Assembly: GCA_017631885.1 (NCBI GenBank) | Contig: JAGBSH010000026.1 | Coordinates: forward strand, 1 to 64,000 | Reading direction: 5' to 3' | DNA: 64,000 bases | From: Fibrobacteraceae bacterium | GTDB taxonomy: Bacteria > Fibrobacterota > Fibrobacteria > Fibrobacterales > Fibrobacteraceae | In this document: one piece after another, positions 7,982 through 63,403 of the stretch | How the letters are laid out: each line of letters starts with the position of its first letter | Numbering within the stretch: the first letter of the stretch is position 1 | The notes under the pieces: model-generated | Database searches by the model: none | What the model was told of the DNA's origin: nothing | The model's input: only the letters and a program-made list of their open reading frames with translations | Translations under genes and position numbers: made by a program

Positions 7982-8778
7982 GCAGAAACCATTTTTGAAG
8001 CAATTTCTACAGCCAATTTAGCACTAAACATTTCTTCTTTTAAATCATCATACTCTTTAGAAAAAAAGACTTCATGTTCTTTTTCTAAAGCATCAAACTC
8101 ATTACAATCAGCAAAAAATATTTTTTCTTGTTTTAATCCTTTTTCTAATAAAATTTCTCGCCGTAAAGTTCTTGCATTTCTATCTACACTAAAATACCCC
8201 ACCCAAGTCCCGCAACAAATTTCTAATTCTATCGCATCATCTGAAAAAGTTCTACAAAATAAAATTTCATAATCCTTAGACTTCGTTAAAGCAAAAAACA
8301 TTTCTAAATCATGTACCATTAAATCAAGAGCTACAGAAACGTCTCTTCCTCTTTTTGAATAGGTATTGTGCCGGAAAAAAGATATTTTCCCTTCTTTAAA
8401 ATCATTAAATGCCTTTTCTAAAACACTAAATCCTGCATGATAACGCTCACTATGACCAGGGAATAAAATTCTTTTCTGTTGTATCGCTAATTGTTCCAAT
8501 TCTTCAACTTCTGTAACATCCAAGGCAACTGGTTTTTCAACAAAAACGTCAAATCCTTTTAAAAGACCTCTTTTAACATATTCAAAATGCGTATTTGCCG
8601 GAGACGCAATAAACAGTATTTTTCTTTCTAAAAATCCATTCTCATTTCCTTGAAAAAACGCAACAACTGACTCGTACGAATCCAACTCTTGAACAATTTC
8701 AAAACCTTTTTTTAACAAGCGCTCTTTATGGCGTTTTCCCATAACGCCCATTCCAATCAAAACAACTTGCCTCTTCAT
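7978..8778 (-). CDS. Gfo/Idh/MocA-family NAD(P)-dependent oxidoreductase
   Basis: 266 aa from the ATG at 8778. The longer frame to 8811 would need TTG and lie inside comF. The N-terminal Rossmann fold shows VVLIGMGVMGKRHKERL with GxGxxG at 9-14, followed by ASPANTHFEYV. The family EKP motif (VEKPVALDV) is near residue 88. It is shorter than most family members (~330 aa), mainly at the C-terminus. Members oxidise or reduce sugar, inositol or amino-acid-type substrates; the substrate here cannot be read from sequence. It is the last gene of the mre-rodA-comF run, and its start lies 20 nt after the comF stop. Confidence 0.82.
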   Translation of the reverse strand: MKRQVVLIGMGVMGKRHKERLLKKGFEIVQELDSYESVVAFFQGNENGFLERKILFIASPANTHFEYVKRGLLKGFDVFVEKPVALDVTEVEELEQLAIQQKRILFPGHSERYHAGFSVLEKAFNDFKEGKISFFRHNTYSKRGRDVSVALDLMVHDLEMFFALTKSKDYEILFCRTFSDDAIELEICCGTWVGYFSVDRNARTLRREILLEKGLKQEKIFFADCNEFDALEKEHEVFFSKEYDDLKEEMFSAKLAVEIASKMVSA

Positions 8779-8798
8779 ATTACAAAATATTAGAAATT

Positions 8799-9503
8799 TT
8801 ATAAAAGCCAATCTTCTTGTTTATCGGCAACAAAATCCAATTCTGCCGAAATAGGTTTTTCATAAAGCAAAGAACAAATCTTAATATTGTGATAACCATT
8901 TCGTTTTAACGCATAAGCACACGCTCCTGTCGTTGCTCCTGTTGTAAAAACATCATCTACTATCACCACGCAATCTTCTTTTTTCACATTCATCCGTTTT
9001 TTTAAAACAAAGGCCCCTGCTACATTCAAAACCCGTTCTGATTTAGAAAGTTTTGTTTGAGAAACTGAAAAAGAACGTCGTCCTAAAGCTTTCCAGACTT
9101 TCCCATTACAATAAGCAGCTAACGCAAGTGCAACTTTTTCTGTCTGATTATACCCCCTTTCTCTAAATCGAGATGGATGGATCGGGACAGGCACAAAAAA
9201 TACATTTCCTTCCAAAGAAAGCCATTCTTTAAAATTTTTTAATGTGTCTCCAGCAGACTTCACTAAATACGCCGCTAAACCTGGCATTGAAGAATATTTT
9301 AATCCATGAATTAAAGCGCGACTAACTGGCCCCATGTTGTAAAGAGAAAATGCATTTTCAGAAACAGCATTTCCATTACGTTCTTTTAAAAGTAATTCTC
9401 GGCAATTTTCACAAAGCCAAGGGTCTAGAGGCTTTTCGCCACAACCACAAGAAAGACAAACCGACCCAAATAAAAACCTAGAAACGATTCCTTTTAAACG
9501 CAT
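8799..9503 (-). CDS. comF: ComF-family phosphoribosyltransferase-like protein
   Basis: 234 aa. A four-Cys zinc-binding N-terminus (CLSCGCGEKP then CENC) precedes a type-I phosphoribosyltransferase fold with the PRPP loop VVIVDDVFTTGATTGAC near 180. Upstream is RERGYNQ, typical of ComF. ComF/GntX proteins are linked to DNA uptake in naturally competent bacteria; the enzymatic reaction is not established. The ATG at 9503 has GGAG 9 nt upstream. It lies 90 nt after rodA, at the tail of the shape operon. Confidence 0.9.
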   Translation of the reverse strand: MRLKGIVSRFLFGSVCLSCGCGEKPLDPWLCENCRELLLKERNGNAVSENAFSLYNMGPVSRALIHGLKYSSMPGLAAYLVKSAGDTLKNFKEWLSLEGNVFFVPVPIHPSRFRERGYNQTEKVALALAAYCNGKVWKALGRRSFSVSQTKLSKSERVLNVAGAFVLKKRMNVKKEDCVVIVDDVFTTGATTGACAYALKRNGYHNIKICSLLYEKPISAELDFVADKQEDWLL

Positions 9504-58608: not shown

Positions 58609-59781
58609 ATGGATGAATTTACCCCGCACGTTTCTTTACAAGAAATTCTTTCTTCTTCTGATTTTAATCATTTTATCTACCCTGTAGATTTATTCCAGTT
58701 GCGCTTAAAAGAAGAATTTTTTAGAACCCAGCGTAATAATAAGCCTTTTGTCTTTATAAAAATATTCATTAAACCATTTGAAATTTTTGGGGATTGGAAC
58801 AAAAACGTTAAAGCGATTCGTGCATGGAAAATAAGTACCCTTACCATGCTTGCTGAATTAGACTTTATTGATGTTATTGGTTTTTTACCAAATGGTGGCA
58901 TTGGCTTAATTTTTCTAGATACTGATATTAGCAAATTACAAGAAATTCGAAAAAAAATCCTGAGAAACTTAAGTGAAAGCAAAACTTTTGATATTCTGCG
59001 TTTCAAAAACAGAAGAGGCCCTATTTTTGAAGCATTTATCCATAATGGAAAAGTCAAAGACAACTCCCCAGAAGAAGATAAGGCCATAAAAAAATTCAAC
59101 AAAGAAAGTAAGCCGTTCTTTGCGCTATCAAGGCTTCTCTACACAGAAAATATTTTACCAAGAACAAAAACTAGAGCACTCCAGATGTTTGTTAAAAGAG
59201 CTATTGACATTGGATGTACTGGATTAGCCTTAATCGTTCTTTCCCCCATTCTTTTAGCTATTGCAGCTATTGTTAAATTCAGTGACCCGAAAGGCCCTGT
59301 TATTTTTAAACAAACTCGAGTTGGTCAGCATGGTAAATTATTTACGATGTATAAATTCCGTAGCATGTATATTGACGCTGAAGAACGCAAAAAAGCTTTA
59401 GAACATTTAAACGAAACATCTGGCCCAACGTTCAAAATGAAAAATGACCCTAGAATTTATCCAATGGGTAGGATCCTTAGAAAATTCAGCCTAGATGAAT
59501 TGCCACAACTTTTCAATATTTTACGTGGTGACATGTCTATTGTAGGGCCTCGCCCACCGATTCCGGCAGAAACCGCAACTTATTCGCCATGGCATAATAT
59601 GCGCTTAGCAGTTAAACCTGGTTTGACATGTATTTGGCAAGTTTCTGGCCGCAGTAATATCAGTTTTGAAGATTGGATGCGTTTGGACAACCAATATATA
59701 CAACAAGCTTCTATTAAAAATGATATTTCTTTAATTGCTAAAACATTTAAAGTCGTCTTTAAAGGCGAAGGCGCTTACTAA
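58609..59781 (+). CDS. Bacterial sugar transferase with GGDEF-like N-terminal region
   Basis: 390 aa. The C-terminal half (about 190-390) is a polyprenyl-phosphate sugar transferase: VKRAIDIGCTGLALIVLSPI (membrane hairpin), FTMYKFRSMYIDAEERKK, FSLDELPQLFNILRGDMSIV, GPRPPIP and GLTCIWQVSGRSN. Instead of four membrane helices, the N-terminal ~165 residues are soluble. They end in DVIGFLPNGGIGLIFLDTD-ISKLQEIRKKIL, which resembles a degenerate GGDEF domain without the catalytic motif. This may regulate the transferase, perhaps by nucleotide binding; that is inference. It is convergent with the radical SAM gene. Confidence 0.88.
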   Translation: MDEFTPHVSLQEILSSSDFNHFIYPVDLFQLRLKEEFFRTQRNNKPFVFIKIFIKPFEIFGDWNKNVKAIRAWKISTLTMLAELDFIDVIGFLPNGGIGLIFLDTDISKLQEIRKKILRNLSESKTFDILRFKNRRGPIFEAFIHNGKVKDNSPEEDKAIKKFNKESKPFFALSRLLYTENILPRTKTRALQMFVKRAIDIGCTGLALIVLSPILLAIAAIVKFSDPKGPVIFKQTRVGQHGKLFTMYKFRSMYIDAEERKKALEHLNETSGPTFKMKNDPRIYPMGRILRKFSLDELPQLFNILRGDMSIVGPRPPIPAETATYSPWHNMRLAVKPGLTCIWQVSGRSNISFEDWMRLDNQYIQQASIKNDISLIAKTFKVVFKGEGAY

Positions 59782-59782
59782 T

Positions 59783-60646
59783 TCATTTCATTACACAAGT
59801 TTTACAAGACACTTGTTTTGAATCACCAAATCGGTTTTCTGGGTTAGGACAATGAGATTTTGTCCCATCGGGATAAATCCATACTTCTTTTGCAAAGGGA
59901 CAATCTAGTGAAGTTTCTTTTTCAAAGAATAAACTCCCCTTTGCTTGGATTGAAAGTCGTTCGCTTTCTGTTTTGATTTTTTCTTGTAATTCTAAATACA
60001 AATCAGGTGAAATTGCATACTTTACTTTATAAGAATCAGAAGCTAAAGAAAGAAATACCGGCAAATTCCATTTAATTCTTGAAACCTGGCATTCACTTGC
60101 AAATTCTAATATGTCTTGAATAGAATATACATTTAAAGCATTTAAAGTAACTTGTAAAGATAATGTGGCCGTAGATTCTCCATTTGAAATCAATTCTTTT
60201 CTGACTTGTGCGTAAGAAGACACATTCTTTTTCCAATTTTCAAAAGTCAACCCAGGCATTAAATTTTGGAAATGCTCTTGTGAAAAACCCATCAAACTAA
60301 TTTTTATATCTGAACAAGATTGCAACAATTTTTTTTGTTTTTCAAATTCAAGATAATTAGGGAATGTTCCATTTGTTGTTAAATTCAGCGGAATATTTTG
60401 ATTAAAACAAAATTCTCGCAAGCTTTCAAAATGCGAATAAAGTAAAGGCTCTCCCATAGTAGAAGGTATTACTTCTTTCAATGTTTTCTTGTATTCCGTA
60501 ATACTTTTTAACGCTAAAGCTAAAGGCATTTCCCCCATTCCAAACGGAATGCCTCTTTGCCGCATAAAGCACAATGGACAAGATAAGTTACACTTATCTG
60601 GATTGGTCAATAAAGTTATTCGCCAAATATTTTTTTTATTCAGCAT
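59783..60646 (-). CDS. Radical SAM protein with SPASM-like C-terminal Cys cluster
   Basis: 287 aa. The N-terminal radical SAM cluster motif is CNLSCPLC (Cys19, Cys23, Cys26), which coordinates the catalytic 4Fe-4S. STMGEPLLYSHFESL is the GGEP-like SAM-binding strand and LTTNGTFPNYL follows. The C-terminal ~40 residues add Cys249, Cys266 (SHCPNP), Cys281 and Cys284 (CKTC), with DG before the second, as in SPASM/twitch domains holding an auxiliary Fe-S cluster. Such enzymes modify peptides, proteins or cofactors. No precursor peptide gene is visible nearby. The start abuts the stop of the TrxR-like gene, so the two are one operon. Substrate unknown. Confidence 0.85.
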   Translation of the reverse strand: MLNKKNIWRITLLTNPDKCNLSCPLCFMRQRGIPFGMGEMPLALALKSITEYKKTLKEVIPSTMGEPLLYSHFESLREFCFNQNIPLNLTTNGTFPNYLEFEKQKKLLQSCSDIKISLMGFSQEHFQNLMPGLTFENWKKNVSSYAQVRKELISNGESTATLSLQVTLNALNVYSIQDILEFASECQVSRIKWNLPVFLSLASDSYKVKYAISPDLYLELQEKIKTESERLSIQAKGSLFFEKETSLDCPFAKEVWIYPDGTKSHCPNPENRFGDSKQVSCKTCVMK

Positions 60647-61531
60647 TTACTTTAAATTTTCCCTTAAAAATTTATTTGCAGCCAAAGCCGCTTTAGCACC
60701 TTCAGCCACAGCAACTGCTATTTGTAAAGTTCCTCCAGTACAATCCCCTGCTGCAAACAATCCTGGGATAGACGATTGAAAATTTTCGTCTAACACTAAT
60801 TTAGCATTTTCAAATGCAGCTCCTGCTTTACGAGCTAAATCTGTGGCAGAGGCGCTACCTATAGCAACAAACAAACCATCATAAAGATTTTCAGTATTAT
60901 CTGCAAAACGAATACCTTCAAATTTTTCATTTCCAAGAAGAGATTCTATTTTACGATTTTCAATAATAAAACCTTCGGTATTTTCAAATTCAAGTTCATT
61001 TCCATTTGTGAGAATAGTAACAGAAGCCGCTACTTGTTTTAATTCAGAAGCTTCGTGCAAGGCATATTCCCCAGAGCCTAAAACCGCAACATTTTTTTTA
61101 CGATAAAAGAACGCATCACACACTGCACAATAACTAACACCATGGCCTTCTAATTTTGACAACCCTACAAATGGTTGCTTTTTACGAGCTGCACCTGTCG
61201 CTAAAATACAAACGCTCCCTGAATATTGTTTTTCTTTAGAACTTGCAACAAACACATTGCCATCAAAAAACAAATCAGTGATTTCGTCTTCACTAATTTC
61301 TGCCCCTAATTGACGAGCTTGCGATTTGCCTATTTCTAAAAGTTCTTTACCTGAAACAGGAGTAGCTAAACCATAATAATTTTCAATCAAATGCGCTTTC
61401 GCTAAAGCGCCGCCATCATAGCCAACAATTTGAACAGAATGCCCGGAACGTAAAGCATATAAAGCTGCTGAAATTCCTGCAGGGCCATACCCAATAATCA
61501 AAAAATCATAAACTTTTTTTTCCATGTTCAT
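60647..61531 (-). CDS. Thioredoxin-reductase-like FAD flavoprotein with atypical NADPH site
   Basis: 294 aa. FAD-binding FLIIGYGPAGISAALYALRS and the redox-active CAVC at 135-138, as in TrxR (CATC). The C-terminal FAD motif is LFAAGDCTGGTLQIAVAVAEG. The pyridine-nucleotide domain has GSGEYA (152-157), but the HRRxxxR motif that grips the NADPH 2'-phosphate is absent (TNGNELEF in that region). It may therefore use NADH or another donor such as ferredoxin, as known for some TrxR-like enzymes. First gene of the two-gene operon with the radical SAM protein. A 10-bp inverted repeat lies 8 nt upstream of the start. Confidence 0.85.
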   Translation of the reverse strand: MNMEKKVYDFLIIGYGPAGISAALYALRSGHSVQIVGYDGGALAKAHLIENYYGLATPVSGKELLEIGKSQARQLGAEISEDEITDLFFDGNVFVASSKEKQYSGSVCILATGAARKKQPFVGLSKLEGHGVSYCAVCDAFFYRKKNVAVLGSGEYALHEASELKQVAASVTILTNGNELEFENTEGFIIENRKIESLLGNEKFEGIRFADNTENLYDGLFVAIGSASATDLARKAGAAFENAKLVLDENFQSSIPGLFAAGDCTGGTLQIAVAVAEGAKAALAANKFLRENLK

Positions 61532-61580: not shown

Positions 61581-61615
61581 TAAAAAAGCCTCGGAAGTTG
61601 GAACAACTTCCGAGG
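61581..61615 (-). terminator. Intrinsic terminator of rpsA
   Basis: 12-bp stem CCTCGGAAGTTG (61589-61600) with CAACTTCCGAGG (61604-61615), loop GAA. On the minus strand it is followed by CTTTTTTATAA. It lies 40 nt past the rpsA stop. Confidence 0.93.
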
Positions 61616-61654: not shown

Positions 61655-63403
61655 TTATTCAGCAGCTTCTTCGTTAGCTTTTTTCTTGGAAGCTTTTTTC
61701 TTAGGAGCTTCAGCATTTTCGCCAGGCTTATGAGCATTCATCCATTCCTGAACTTCTGCTTCATCGCGGTTTTTGAAATAATCGGCAACAGACAAATAGA
61801 GTTTGCGGTTGTCCATATCAATTTCAGTAACCACAGCAGGAACATCATCGCCTACTTTGAAAGCGTCTGCTGGAACCTTGATGAATTCAGCAGAAAGCTT
61901 AGAAACAGGGATAAAGCCTTCTAAACCGTCATCTAATTCAACCACGACACCGCGGTCTAAAAGACGAACGATTTTACCTTTCACTTCAGAATCAACTGGG
62001 TGAGTTGTTTCTACTACATCCCATGGATCTTCTGTGAGGTGTTTCATAGAAAGAGAAATGCGACGTTTTTCACGGTCTACAGCTAAGACAACACATTCAA
62101 CCTTATCGCCCTTCTTAACGAGTTCGTTAGGGTGAGTGATTTTCTTTGTCCAAGACATATCAGAAACGTGAATCAAGCCATCAACACCTTCCTTGATTTC
62201 AACGAATGCACCGAAAGAAGCAAGGTTGCGGATTTCACCAACAACACGAGCGCCTGGTGGCAATTCAGCATCAATAGAATCCCATGGATCAGATTCAAGC
62301 TGTTTCATACCAAGAGAAATGCGTTCTGCATCTTCTTCAACTTTAAGAACGACAGCTTCAACTTCTTGACCAACAACCAAAATTTTGGAAGGGTGTTTAA
62401 CATGTTGAGTCCAAGACATTTCAGAAACGTGAATAAGGCCTTCAATGCCACTATCAAGTTCAATGAATGCACCATAATCAGTGATGGAAACAACTTTACC
62501 TGTAGCAATCATACCTTCTGGGTAACGAGCTGCAACGTCTTTCCAAGGATGTGGTTTCAATTGTTTCATGCCAAGAGAAATGCGTTCCTTCTTGTCGTTA
62601 AAGTCAAGAACCTTAACTTCAACTTCTTGACCGAGTTGGAGCATTTCAGATGGGTGATTGATGCGCTTGTAGCTCATATCGGTGATATGGAGAAGACCAT
62701 CTACGCCACCGAGATCAATGAAGGCTCCGAAATCTGTAATATTCTTAACGATACCCTTACGAACTTGGTCTTTTTCAAGAGTATCCAAGATGTCTCCACG
62801 TTGACGATTGCGTTCTTCTTCAAGAACAACACGGCGGGAAACAACAATATTGCGGCGAGTCTTATTTACCTTGATAACCTTAAGGTCAAATTCTTGGCCA
62901 ATCAAAGCATTGATATCTGGAATCTGGCGTAAATCGATTTGGGAACCTGGCAAGAAAGCATCAATGCCAAAGAGATCCACAACAACACCACCCTTGATAC
63001 GCTTTGTAAGAGCACCGCGGACAATTTCATTATTTTCGAAAGCTTCGTGAATGCGATCCCAAACGCGGACAAAGTCTGCTTTTTGTTTGGAAAGAACCAA
63101 ACGGCCATCGCCATCTTCGAGTTTTTCCACGAATACTTCAATTTCGGACCCAACTTCTAAAGTATCGGAATCCTTAAATTCTGCACGGTCAATAACGCCT
63201 TCAGACTTGAAGTTCACATCGATAAGAACTTCTTGGTCATCAACATGACTGATTTTACCTACAACGAGCTTGCCTGGTTCGAGGCAATCCATAACGGCGT
63301 AAACATCAGCGGCTTCAGAAGATTTAATCTTGCCGAGTTCCGCTTCAGCGGCGAGAATTTCGTCCAGGTCTTCCTGGGAACCGAAAAGAATTTTGTTGGA
63401 CAT
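61655..63403 (-). CDS. rpsA: 30S ribosomal protein S1
   Basis: 582 aa. Six S1 RNA-binding repeats; the last four show the FGAFV/LIHVSDMSWTK pattern (GVDGLLHITDMSYK, GIEGLIHVSEMSWT, GVDGLIHVSDMSWT, GLEGFIPVSKLSA). The C-terminus is Lys/Ala-rich. S1 unwinds and anchors mRNA on the 30S subunit. It lies 2 nt after cmk, the widespread cmk-rpsA arrangement. Codons look highly biased, as expected for a ribosomal gene. Confidence 0.97.
   Translation of the reverse strand: MSNKILFGSQEDLDEILAAEAELGKIKSSEAADVYAVMDCLEPGKLVVGKISHVDDQEVLIDVNFKSEGVIDRAEFKDSDTLEVGSEIEVFVEKLEDGDGRLVLSKQKADFVRVWDRIHEAFENNEIVRGALTKRIKGGVVVDLFGIDAFLPGSQIDLRQIPDINALIGQEFDLKVIKVNKTRRNIVVSRRVVLEEERNRQRGDILDTLEKDQVRKGIVKNITDFGAFIDLGGVDGLLHITDMSYKRINHPSEMLQLGQEVEVKVLDFNDKKERISLGMKQLKPHPWKDVAARYPEGMIATGKVVSITDYGAFIELDSGIEGLIHVSEMSWTQHVKHPSKILVVGQEVEAVVLKVEEDAERISLGMKQLESDPWDSIDAELPPGARVVGEIRNLASFGAFVEIKEGVDGLIHVSDMSWTKKITHPNELVKKGDKVECVVLAVDREKRRISLSMKHLTEDPWDVVETTHPVDSEVKGKIVRLLDRGVVVELDDGLEGFIPVSKLSAEFIKVPADAFKVGDDVPAVVTEIDMDNRKLYLSVADYFKNRDEAEVQEWMNAHKPGENAEAPKKKASKKKANEEAAE

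Follow-up and report, generated by a model that had tools for sequence, protein, structure and literature searches.

Locus organization

The window analyzed here, a 64,000-nucleotide stretch of a Fibrobacteraceae contig, carries on its minus strand a gene for a thioredoxin reductase (TrxR) and, downstream of it, a gene for a radical SAM (rSAM) protein (Table 1). The rSAM start codon (ATG at 60646) directly follows the end of the TrxR open reading frame (ORF), leaving a gap of 0, and both minus-strand ORFs lie where a preliminary description of this DNA had placed them when it reported that the two genes abut. A single base (59782) separates the rSAM stop codon from the end of a convergent sugar transferase gene; for the ~190 N-terminal residues of its product, Pfam gave no match at E up to 1. 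On the other side, a terminator-like hairpin sits between the operon and a gene at 61655–63403 that we read as rpsA from its repeats. A terminator scan of the stretch returned 3 sites against 1.5 expected in shuffled sequence, this hairpin being the longest, and the same scan turned up no convincing promoter ahead of the TrxR gene. By its anatomy the operon is predicted to be two genes long.

Table 1. Features of the TrxR–rSAM locus (positions in the window)
Feature	Position	Strand	Remarks and basis
TRi-like atypical thioredoxin reductase (TrxR)	60647..61531	-	294 aa; operon gene 1
Redox-active CAVC (C135-C138) of the reductase	61118..61129	-	sequence, 5nii alignment, motif tally
TNGN (residues 175-178) replacing the HRR 2'-phosphate motif	60998..61009	-	alignment, motif tally
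Half-SPASM (twitch) rSAM protein	59783..60646	-	287 aa; operon gene 2
CNLSCPLC, radical SAM [4Fe-4S] motif C19-x3-C23-x2-C26	60569..60592	-	alignment
Four-Cys motif C249-x11-G-x4-C266...C281-x2-C284	59795..59902	-	putative auxiliary Fe-S cluster site
Bacterial sugar transferase gene	58609..59781	+	convergent; bounds the operon, membership judged by position only
Terminator-like hairpin	61589..61615	-	12 perfect pairs, then a T run; consensus match only

Conservation of the gene pair

A profile built on 25 proteins, applied with a threshold of E up to 1e-25, detected homologues of the rSAM protein in 98 of 167 phylum genomes, all 98 belonging to the window's own family; weaker matches outside the family (e.g., 1.2e-9 in G049) were not counted. 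The wider coverage of the rSAM family comprised Fibrobacterota, collections of plasmids, phages, and viral contigs, and one narrow genome scan. TrxR was present in 91/167 genomes at E up to 1e-60. Genera are numbered here; the term Fibrobacter-like for g2 rests on six named records, all Fibrobacter metagenome-assembled genomes (MAGs), with 42–45% identity to the window protein.

The survey of conserved pairing proposed in the preliminary description bore it out: in 78 of the 85 genomes that hold both genes, TrxR precedes rSAM on the same strand and no more than 400 bp separate the match ends; these adjacent pairs fall in four genera (74 in g2, 2 in g1, and 1 each in g3 and g4). ORF clustering recovered the same order in two Fibrobacter MAG loci (L065 and L067); at the other named Fibrobacter loci the TrxR gene was hidden by an antisense frame. 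The seven non-adjacent cases are six g10 genomes and G002. Five of the g10 genomes have the genes on different contigs, and they lie ~31 kb apart in the single-contig genome G017. In G002, TrxR ends ~70 bases from a contig end and rSAM starts 195 bases from the end of another contig, a separation compatible with an assembly break. The rSAM gene occurs without TrxR in 13 genomes and TrxR without rSAM in six, several of them incomplete. One g2 genome (G013) has the slot after TrxR taken by a lipoprotein gene, whose product we read as a Fib_succ_major protein, and in five of the six g10 genomes, the five inspected, TrxR is directly followed by a gene that we take to be coaBC-like.

Eight other ORFs of the window surround the pair. 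Six have no homologue in the other neighborhoods and two have one only in G001, of the same genus, so that 0/8 has a homologue near the pair outside the genus. The pair has thus outlived its surroundings. Its adjacency is beyond chance and represents an old pairing. We found no description of a TrxR–rSAM pair in the literature retrieved on Fibrobacter radical SAM proteins or thioredoxin.

An atypical thioredoxin reductase

The partner gene had been described as encoding a CxxC flavoprotein, in agreement with its CAVC motif and a Pyr_redox_2 match of 3.7e-34. Its best solved relative is the atypical TrxR of Desulfovibrio vulgaris (5nii, 7.8e-56), which scored 192.8 bits versus 136.8 for the next solved relative. 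Two structures that we take to be clostridial ferredoxin-dependent flavin TrxR (FFTR), 6gnc and 6gna, are weaker relatives (7.1e-35 and 2.6e-32). The sequence reads VTILTNGN where the VxxxHRRDxxRA motif would be expected, and among 71 parsed relatives this site holds TNG in 68, TND in 2, TNN in 1, and HRR in 0. Assignment to the NADPH-dependent TrxR family (TIGR01292) was rejected, the protein scoring 213.7 of the 343.45 bits required and HRR being found in 0/71 relatives, the window protein included.

The TRi type is defined by T-[QN]-G in place of HRR, a degenerate pyrophosphate motif, VSY-CxxC, a Phe pair, and G[RK]G (PMC5627308). The window TrxR has TNG, VSY, CAVC, and FF, sharing with DvTRi, as presented in the available part of that paper, the VSY-CxxC-D..FF arrangement and the T-[QN]-G substitution; the TRi proteins treated there carry TQ/NGK at the HRR site. 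It differs in having GHG instead of G[RK]G and in a pyrophosphate motif (GSGEYALHE) that is only partly degenerate and so partly retained. With TNG and no HRR, the protein is similar to the NAD(P)H-independent Desulfovibrio TRi, though not in every sign. The DvTRi gene is given as monocistronic in the same excerpt, whereas the TrxR gene here heads a two-gene operon. DvTRi was reduced by neither NADPH nor NADH, and its reductant is stated to be unknown in the accessible text of PMC5627308; clostridial non-NADPH TrxB proteins are treated as probable ferredoxin enzymes in the portion available of PMC10880999.

At E up to 1e-15 this protein is the sole TrxR detected in the window genome, and the same holds for the other two genomes of its genus (one 71% complete), 11/11 sampled genomes of Fibrobacter-like g2, and two g10 genomes. 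A TrxR above the canonical cut-off is held by 16/41 family genomes, and a thioredoxin reductase is encoded by all Fibrobacteres genomes but one according to the available part of PMC4704652. As the only TrxR detected in its genome, the enzyme is most likely the housekeeping reductase, and presumably not a private electron donor. Most TRi genomes in the accessible text of PMC5627308 also have the NADPH type, in contrast to the situation here. Dependence on one TRi-like TrxR that lacks the NADPH motif is apparent in Fibrobacter-like genomes, as in the three thermophilic cellulolytic clostridia that hold TRi only in that text.

A half-SPASM radical SAM protein

The second gene product belongs to the radical SAM superfamily, which is defined by CxxxCxxC within a partial TIM barrel, by its CxxxCxxC motif, its Pfam Radical_SAM match (1.9e-12; 48.1 bits against a cut-off of 29.5), and structural matches with Z up to 18.1. 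The C19/C23/C26 motif is invariant in 25/25 aligned proteins, the window protein among them. The three N-terminal and four C-terminal cysteines counted in the preliminary description are C19, C23, and C26, and C249, C266, C281, and C284. Its term "SPASM-like" fits as far as the four-Cys C-terminus goes but needs to be narrowed to half-SPASM, since Pfam SPASM (PF13186) gave no match to the protein at E up to 1. A full SPASM domain has seven Cys for two auxiliary clusters and was rejected on the four C-terminal Cys and the lack of that match. The half-SPASM (twitch) domain is defined by C-x(9-15)-G-x4-C plus further Cys, a pattern to which C249-x11-G-x4-C266 with C281 and C284 conforms at the level of sequence. 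MoaA and BtrN, which we take to be half-SPASM enzymes, likewise have one C-x11-G-x4-C motif and two further Cys, and MoaA is also a fold neighbor (Z 16.2); the Cys spacing in MoaA differs from that of the rSAM protein here.

That the protein has no nameable subfamily, as had been noted, agrees with superfamily classification: 0/25 NCBIfam families matching at E up to 1 exceeded their own curated cut-offs, and the best, TIGR04317, reached 48.3 of 380 bits. Two named candidates were rejected, moaA at 23.4 of 284.05 bits and viperin at 25 of 180 bits; the padloc pVip match (3.4e-8) covers the common core only. The available part of PMC5442110 gives locus tags for six F. succinogenes radical SAM genes that respond to acid, none of which could be matched to the rSAM gene of the window.

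An AlphaFold2 model built from 8 sequences (mean pLDDT 75.5, pTM 0.79) is weak at residues 269–287 (pLDDT under 50), the stretch that holds C281 and C284. Its fold neighbors, for which Foldseek was also used, have Z of 16–18 and comprise SuiB, DesII, BlsE, viperin, SkfB, PqqE, and MoaA. The peptide enzyme SuiB ranks highest (18.1), followed closely by DesII (18.0), BlsE (17.5), and viperin (17.4); these last three and MoaA are, we assume, small-molecule enzymes. With peptide, sugar, and nucleotide enzymes tied, the fold does not choose a substrate, and the top rank of SuiB, tied with DesII in the predicted model, would reflect a common fold that shows no function. Profile matches to solved structures were mainly to the core and gave no choice of substrate either.

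Putative auxiliary-cluster cysteines

Matches occurred in 98 genomes, from which 89 rSAM loci yielded 87 parsed proteins (G009 and G155 were left out). None of the 87 has fewer than four Cys in the C-terminal region, where Cys density is 0.071 per residue versus 0.021 mid-protein. The terminal CxxC is kept in 44 and missing in 43. Among the latter, 39 have at least two upstream Cys besides the conserved one, counted over the 30 residues before an E-x-W motif and arranged as CxxC in 24 of the 39. Zero tail Cys are left in 35 of the 43, and the four not among the 39 (G022, G110, G123, and G142) have one or two tail Cys. Since 16 of the 44 CxxC-keeping proteins also have upstream Cys (at least two in 10 of them), upstream Cys alone are no proof of ligand relocation.

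The parsed proteins are related, so the 43 lacking CxxC do not represent 43 events. A tree for which those columns were omitted requires at least three changes in whether the terminal CxxC is present, and it is compatible with a single origin of the change. We read the conserved Cys count as probable pressure for keeping four cluster ligands, and the pattern as a whole supports one putative auxiliary Fe-S cluster in the rSAM protein. In g2 proteins, of which L082:9379-10212 and L084:9270-10295 are examples, the terminal CxxC is gone and extra Cys occur a little before the conserved Cys, an apparent relocation of cluster ligands.

Kinship with glycosyltransferase–radical SAM fusions

Besides Radical_SAM, the best match among PHROG, Pfam, and NCBIfam profiles was phrog_21308 (8e-29), aligned at profile positions 407–661 of 735, the rSAM half of a glycosyltransferase (GT) fusion. 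The window protein aligns over 91–92% of its length with the rSAM halves of two fusions, a GT4 fusion of Fibrobacteraceae (P0001, genome G017; 34% identity, 5.5e-30) and one of Wolbachia phage WO (30% identity, 3e-28). The available part of PMC9203015 describes UC3 (WD0613), of the Undecim Cluster of phage WO, as a GT4–radical SAM/SPASM fusion. Similarly long frames in G110, G113, and G158 gave further matches, and relatives include a GT4–rSAM fusion on a phage contig (L124) and an rSAM gene next to, but not fused with, a GT4 gene on a viral contig (L125). Radical SAM proteins of Lawsonia and a few other plasmid-borne ones matched weakly (E about 1e-4).

The phrog_21308/UC3 fusions share with the window protein a homologous rSAM domain with PSTMGEP and TTNGTFP stretches. 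They differ in carrying an N-terminal GT4 domain and in matching Pfam SPASM, whereas the window protein stands alone as 287 aa of rSAM with a half-SPASM C-terminus only. The fusion loci carry epimerases, methyltransferases, or a carbamoyltransferase. In a tree of 38 proteins, the standalone Fibrobacteraceae proteins, genus g5 included, are set apart from the fusions (31 rows, 99/96), and the G012 protein lies outside both groups. Clustering of neighborhood ORFs found no glycan gene as a conserved neighbor of the standalone branch. With a separate branch and no such neighbor, substrate kinship with the fusions may not carry over.

A recurring cassette was observed in a Fibrobacteraceae genome (L080:7744-15852) and on two viral contigs (L125:4728-9345 and L124:4531-7748), with GT4 fused or adjacent to rSAM/SPASM and a WG-repeat protein close by (by Pfam in two, by sequence in L124). 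Two of the three cases include a tyrosine phosphatase, and an epimerase and an O-methyltransferase each occur once; Pfam GT4-conflict also matches weakly in the cassette. Positions 8001–8864 of an Arsenophonus plasmid (L126, CP132904.1) contain a homologous rSAM frame for which PLSDB, whose gene table is incomplete, lists no feature. Its neighbors are an epimerase gene, a gene for an O-methyltransferase, and one resembling phytanoyl-CoA dioxygenase, a set similar to that of phage WO.

Electron donors and precursor peptides

Five Fer4_7 matches were obtained in the window genome, among them a frame of 64 aa that we read as a ferredoxin and one of 1209 aa that we read as pyruvate:ferredoxin oxidoreductase; thioredoxin-like matches number eight. 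For the co-occurring ferredoxin that the preliminary description proposed to look for, the 64-aa frame is a candidate, and the radical cluster is likely to take its electrons from a ferredoxin. Flavodoxin as a shared donor was rejected, Flavodoxin_1 (PF00258) having no match in the window genome. This absence is not general, as 11 of 12 other family genomes tried have the domain, that of G001 being weak (2.4e-4, under the cut-off); G002 has none. Frames of 150–175 aa match Flavodoxin_1 in six of seven g2 genomes tried, and none was detected in G000 and G002, of the window's genus.

A survey of small ORFs in 19 neighborhoods, excluding ORFs inside larger ones, agreed with the earlier remark that no precursor peptide is evident. 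No small ORF beside the pair was conserved across genera apart from one multi-genus cluster, antisense to an RRM gene, and none of 15 ORFs with at least four Cys near the pair belonged to a multi-genus cluster. A RiPP maturase recognizable by a nearby conserved precursor gene was thus rejected for these neighborhoods.

Interpretation of the gene pair

The explanation that we favor, tentatively and with somewhat less than even confidence, is a two-gene operon of a TRi-like TrxR and an rSAM enzyme with one auxiliary cluster, acting on a small or envelope-glycan substrate, the two being tied by shared regulation. The TRi-like TrxR would reduce the thioredoxin of the cell, probably from a donor other than NADPH. 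The rSAM enzyme would hold a radical-generating [4Fe-4S] cluster, reduced by ferredoxin, and an auxiliary cluster in its half-SPASM region. The 5'-deoxyadenosyl radical would abstract hydrogen from a small or envelope-glycan-linked substrate, and the auxiliary cluster may take up the resulting electron, in an oxidation or dehydrogenation, or bind the substrate. The tie between the genes would lie in the regulation of an anaerobe in which thiol state and Fe-S enzymes are needed together, with no direct electron transfer. The substrate class is suggested by the company kept by distant relatives, and most of the doubt attaches to that step.

The preliminary description had instead suggested that the pair could be an electron-supply/modification system, and had pointed to Cys- or disulfide-containing substrates as frequent among radical SAM enzymes. 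In a dedicated pair of this kind, the flavoprotein would donate electrons to the auxiliary cluster or to the radical SAM cluster. The zero gap and the adjacency in 78/85 genomes would suit such a pair, as would the missing NADPH motif, which leaves both donor and acceptor of the TrxR open. However, the proposal does not sit well with a TrxR that is the sole one detected, in 11/11 g2 genomes as well, and that keeps its CxxC and the nearby VSY and FF residues, nor with the genes occurring singly in 13 and six genomes and apart in six g10 genomes (on different contigs in five), where TrxR precedes the coaBC-like gene in the five inspected. A TrxR disulfide is moreover too oxidising for direct reduction of a radical SAM cluster, and we regard this arrangement as improbable. 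A converse role, in which the rSAM protein delivers electrons to the NAD(P)H-independent sole TrxR or matures it, as part of the thioredoxin system, we consider very improbable indeed.

Modification of a peptide, perhaps Cys-rich and encoded elsewhere, by the rSAM protein as a RiPP or protein maturase draws on the SPASM-type SuiB and SkfB and the epimerase YydG, which rank near the top of the solved structures in fold or profile comparisons. The 19 neighborhoods offered no small ORF conserved across genera, and a length of 287 aa, with the first strand already at residue 9, leaves too little room for a leader-binding domain at the N-terminus, making a maturase unlikely. More serious, if still doubtful, is mere adjacency, in which the genes for a housekeeping TrxR and for an rSAM protein unrelated to it would share an operon through inheritance and be functionally independent. 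Each gene is found without the other, the g10 TrxR has a different downstream gene with rSAM elsewhere, and a lipoprotein gene fills the rSAM slot in one g2 genome, all as unlinked functions would allow; yet the pair has been kept in four genera while none of the eight flanking ORFs has a homologue near the pair outside the genus.

The source bacterium is a relative of the cellulose-degrading Fibrobacter, and the locus gives a handle on an uncharacterised rSAM branch found in 98/167 genomes of the phylum, all of one family, with apparently relocated auxiliary-cluster Cys. In Fibrobacter-like bacteria, a TRi-like reductase seems to be the only one serving thioredoxin; the donor for this type is left open in the available text of PMC5627308. 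If the rSAM protein were indeed part of the thioredoxin system, it would answer who reduces TRi.
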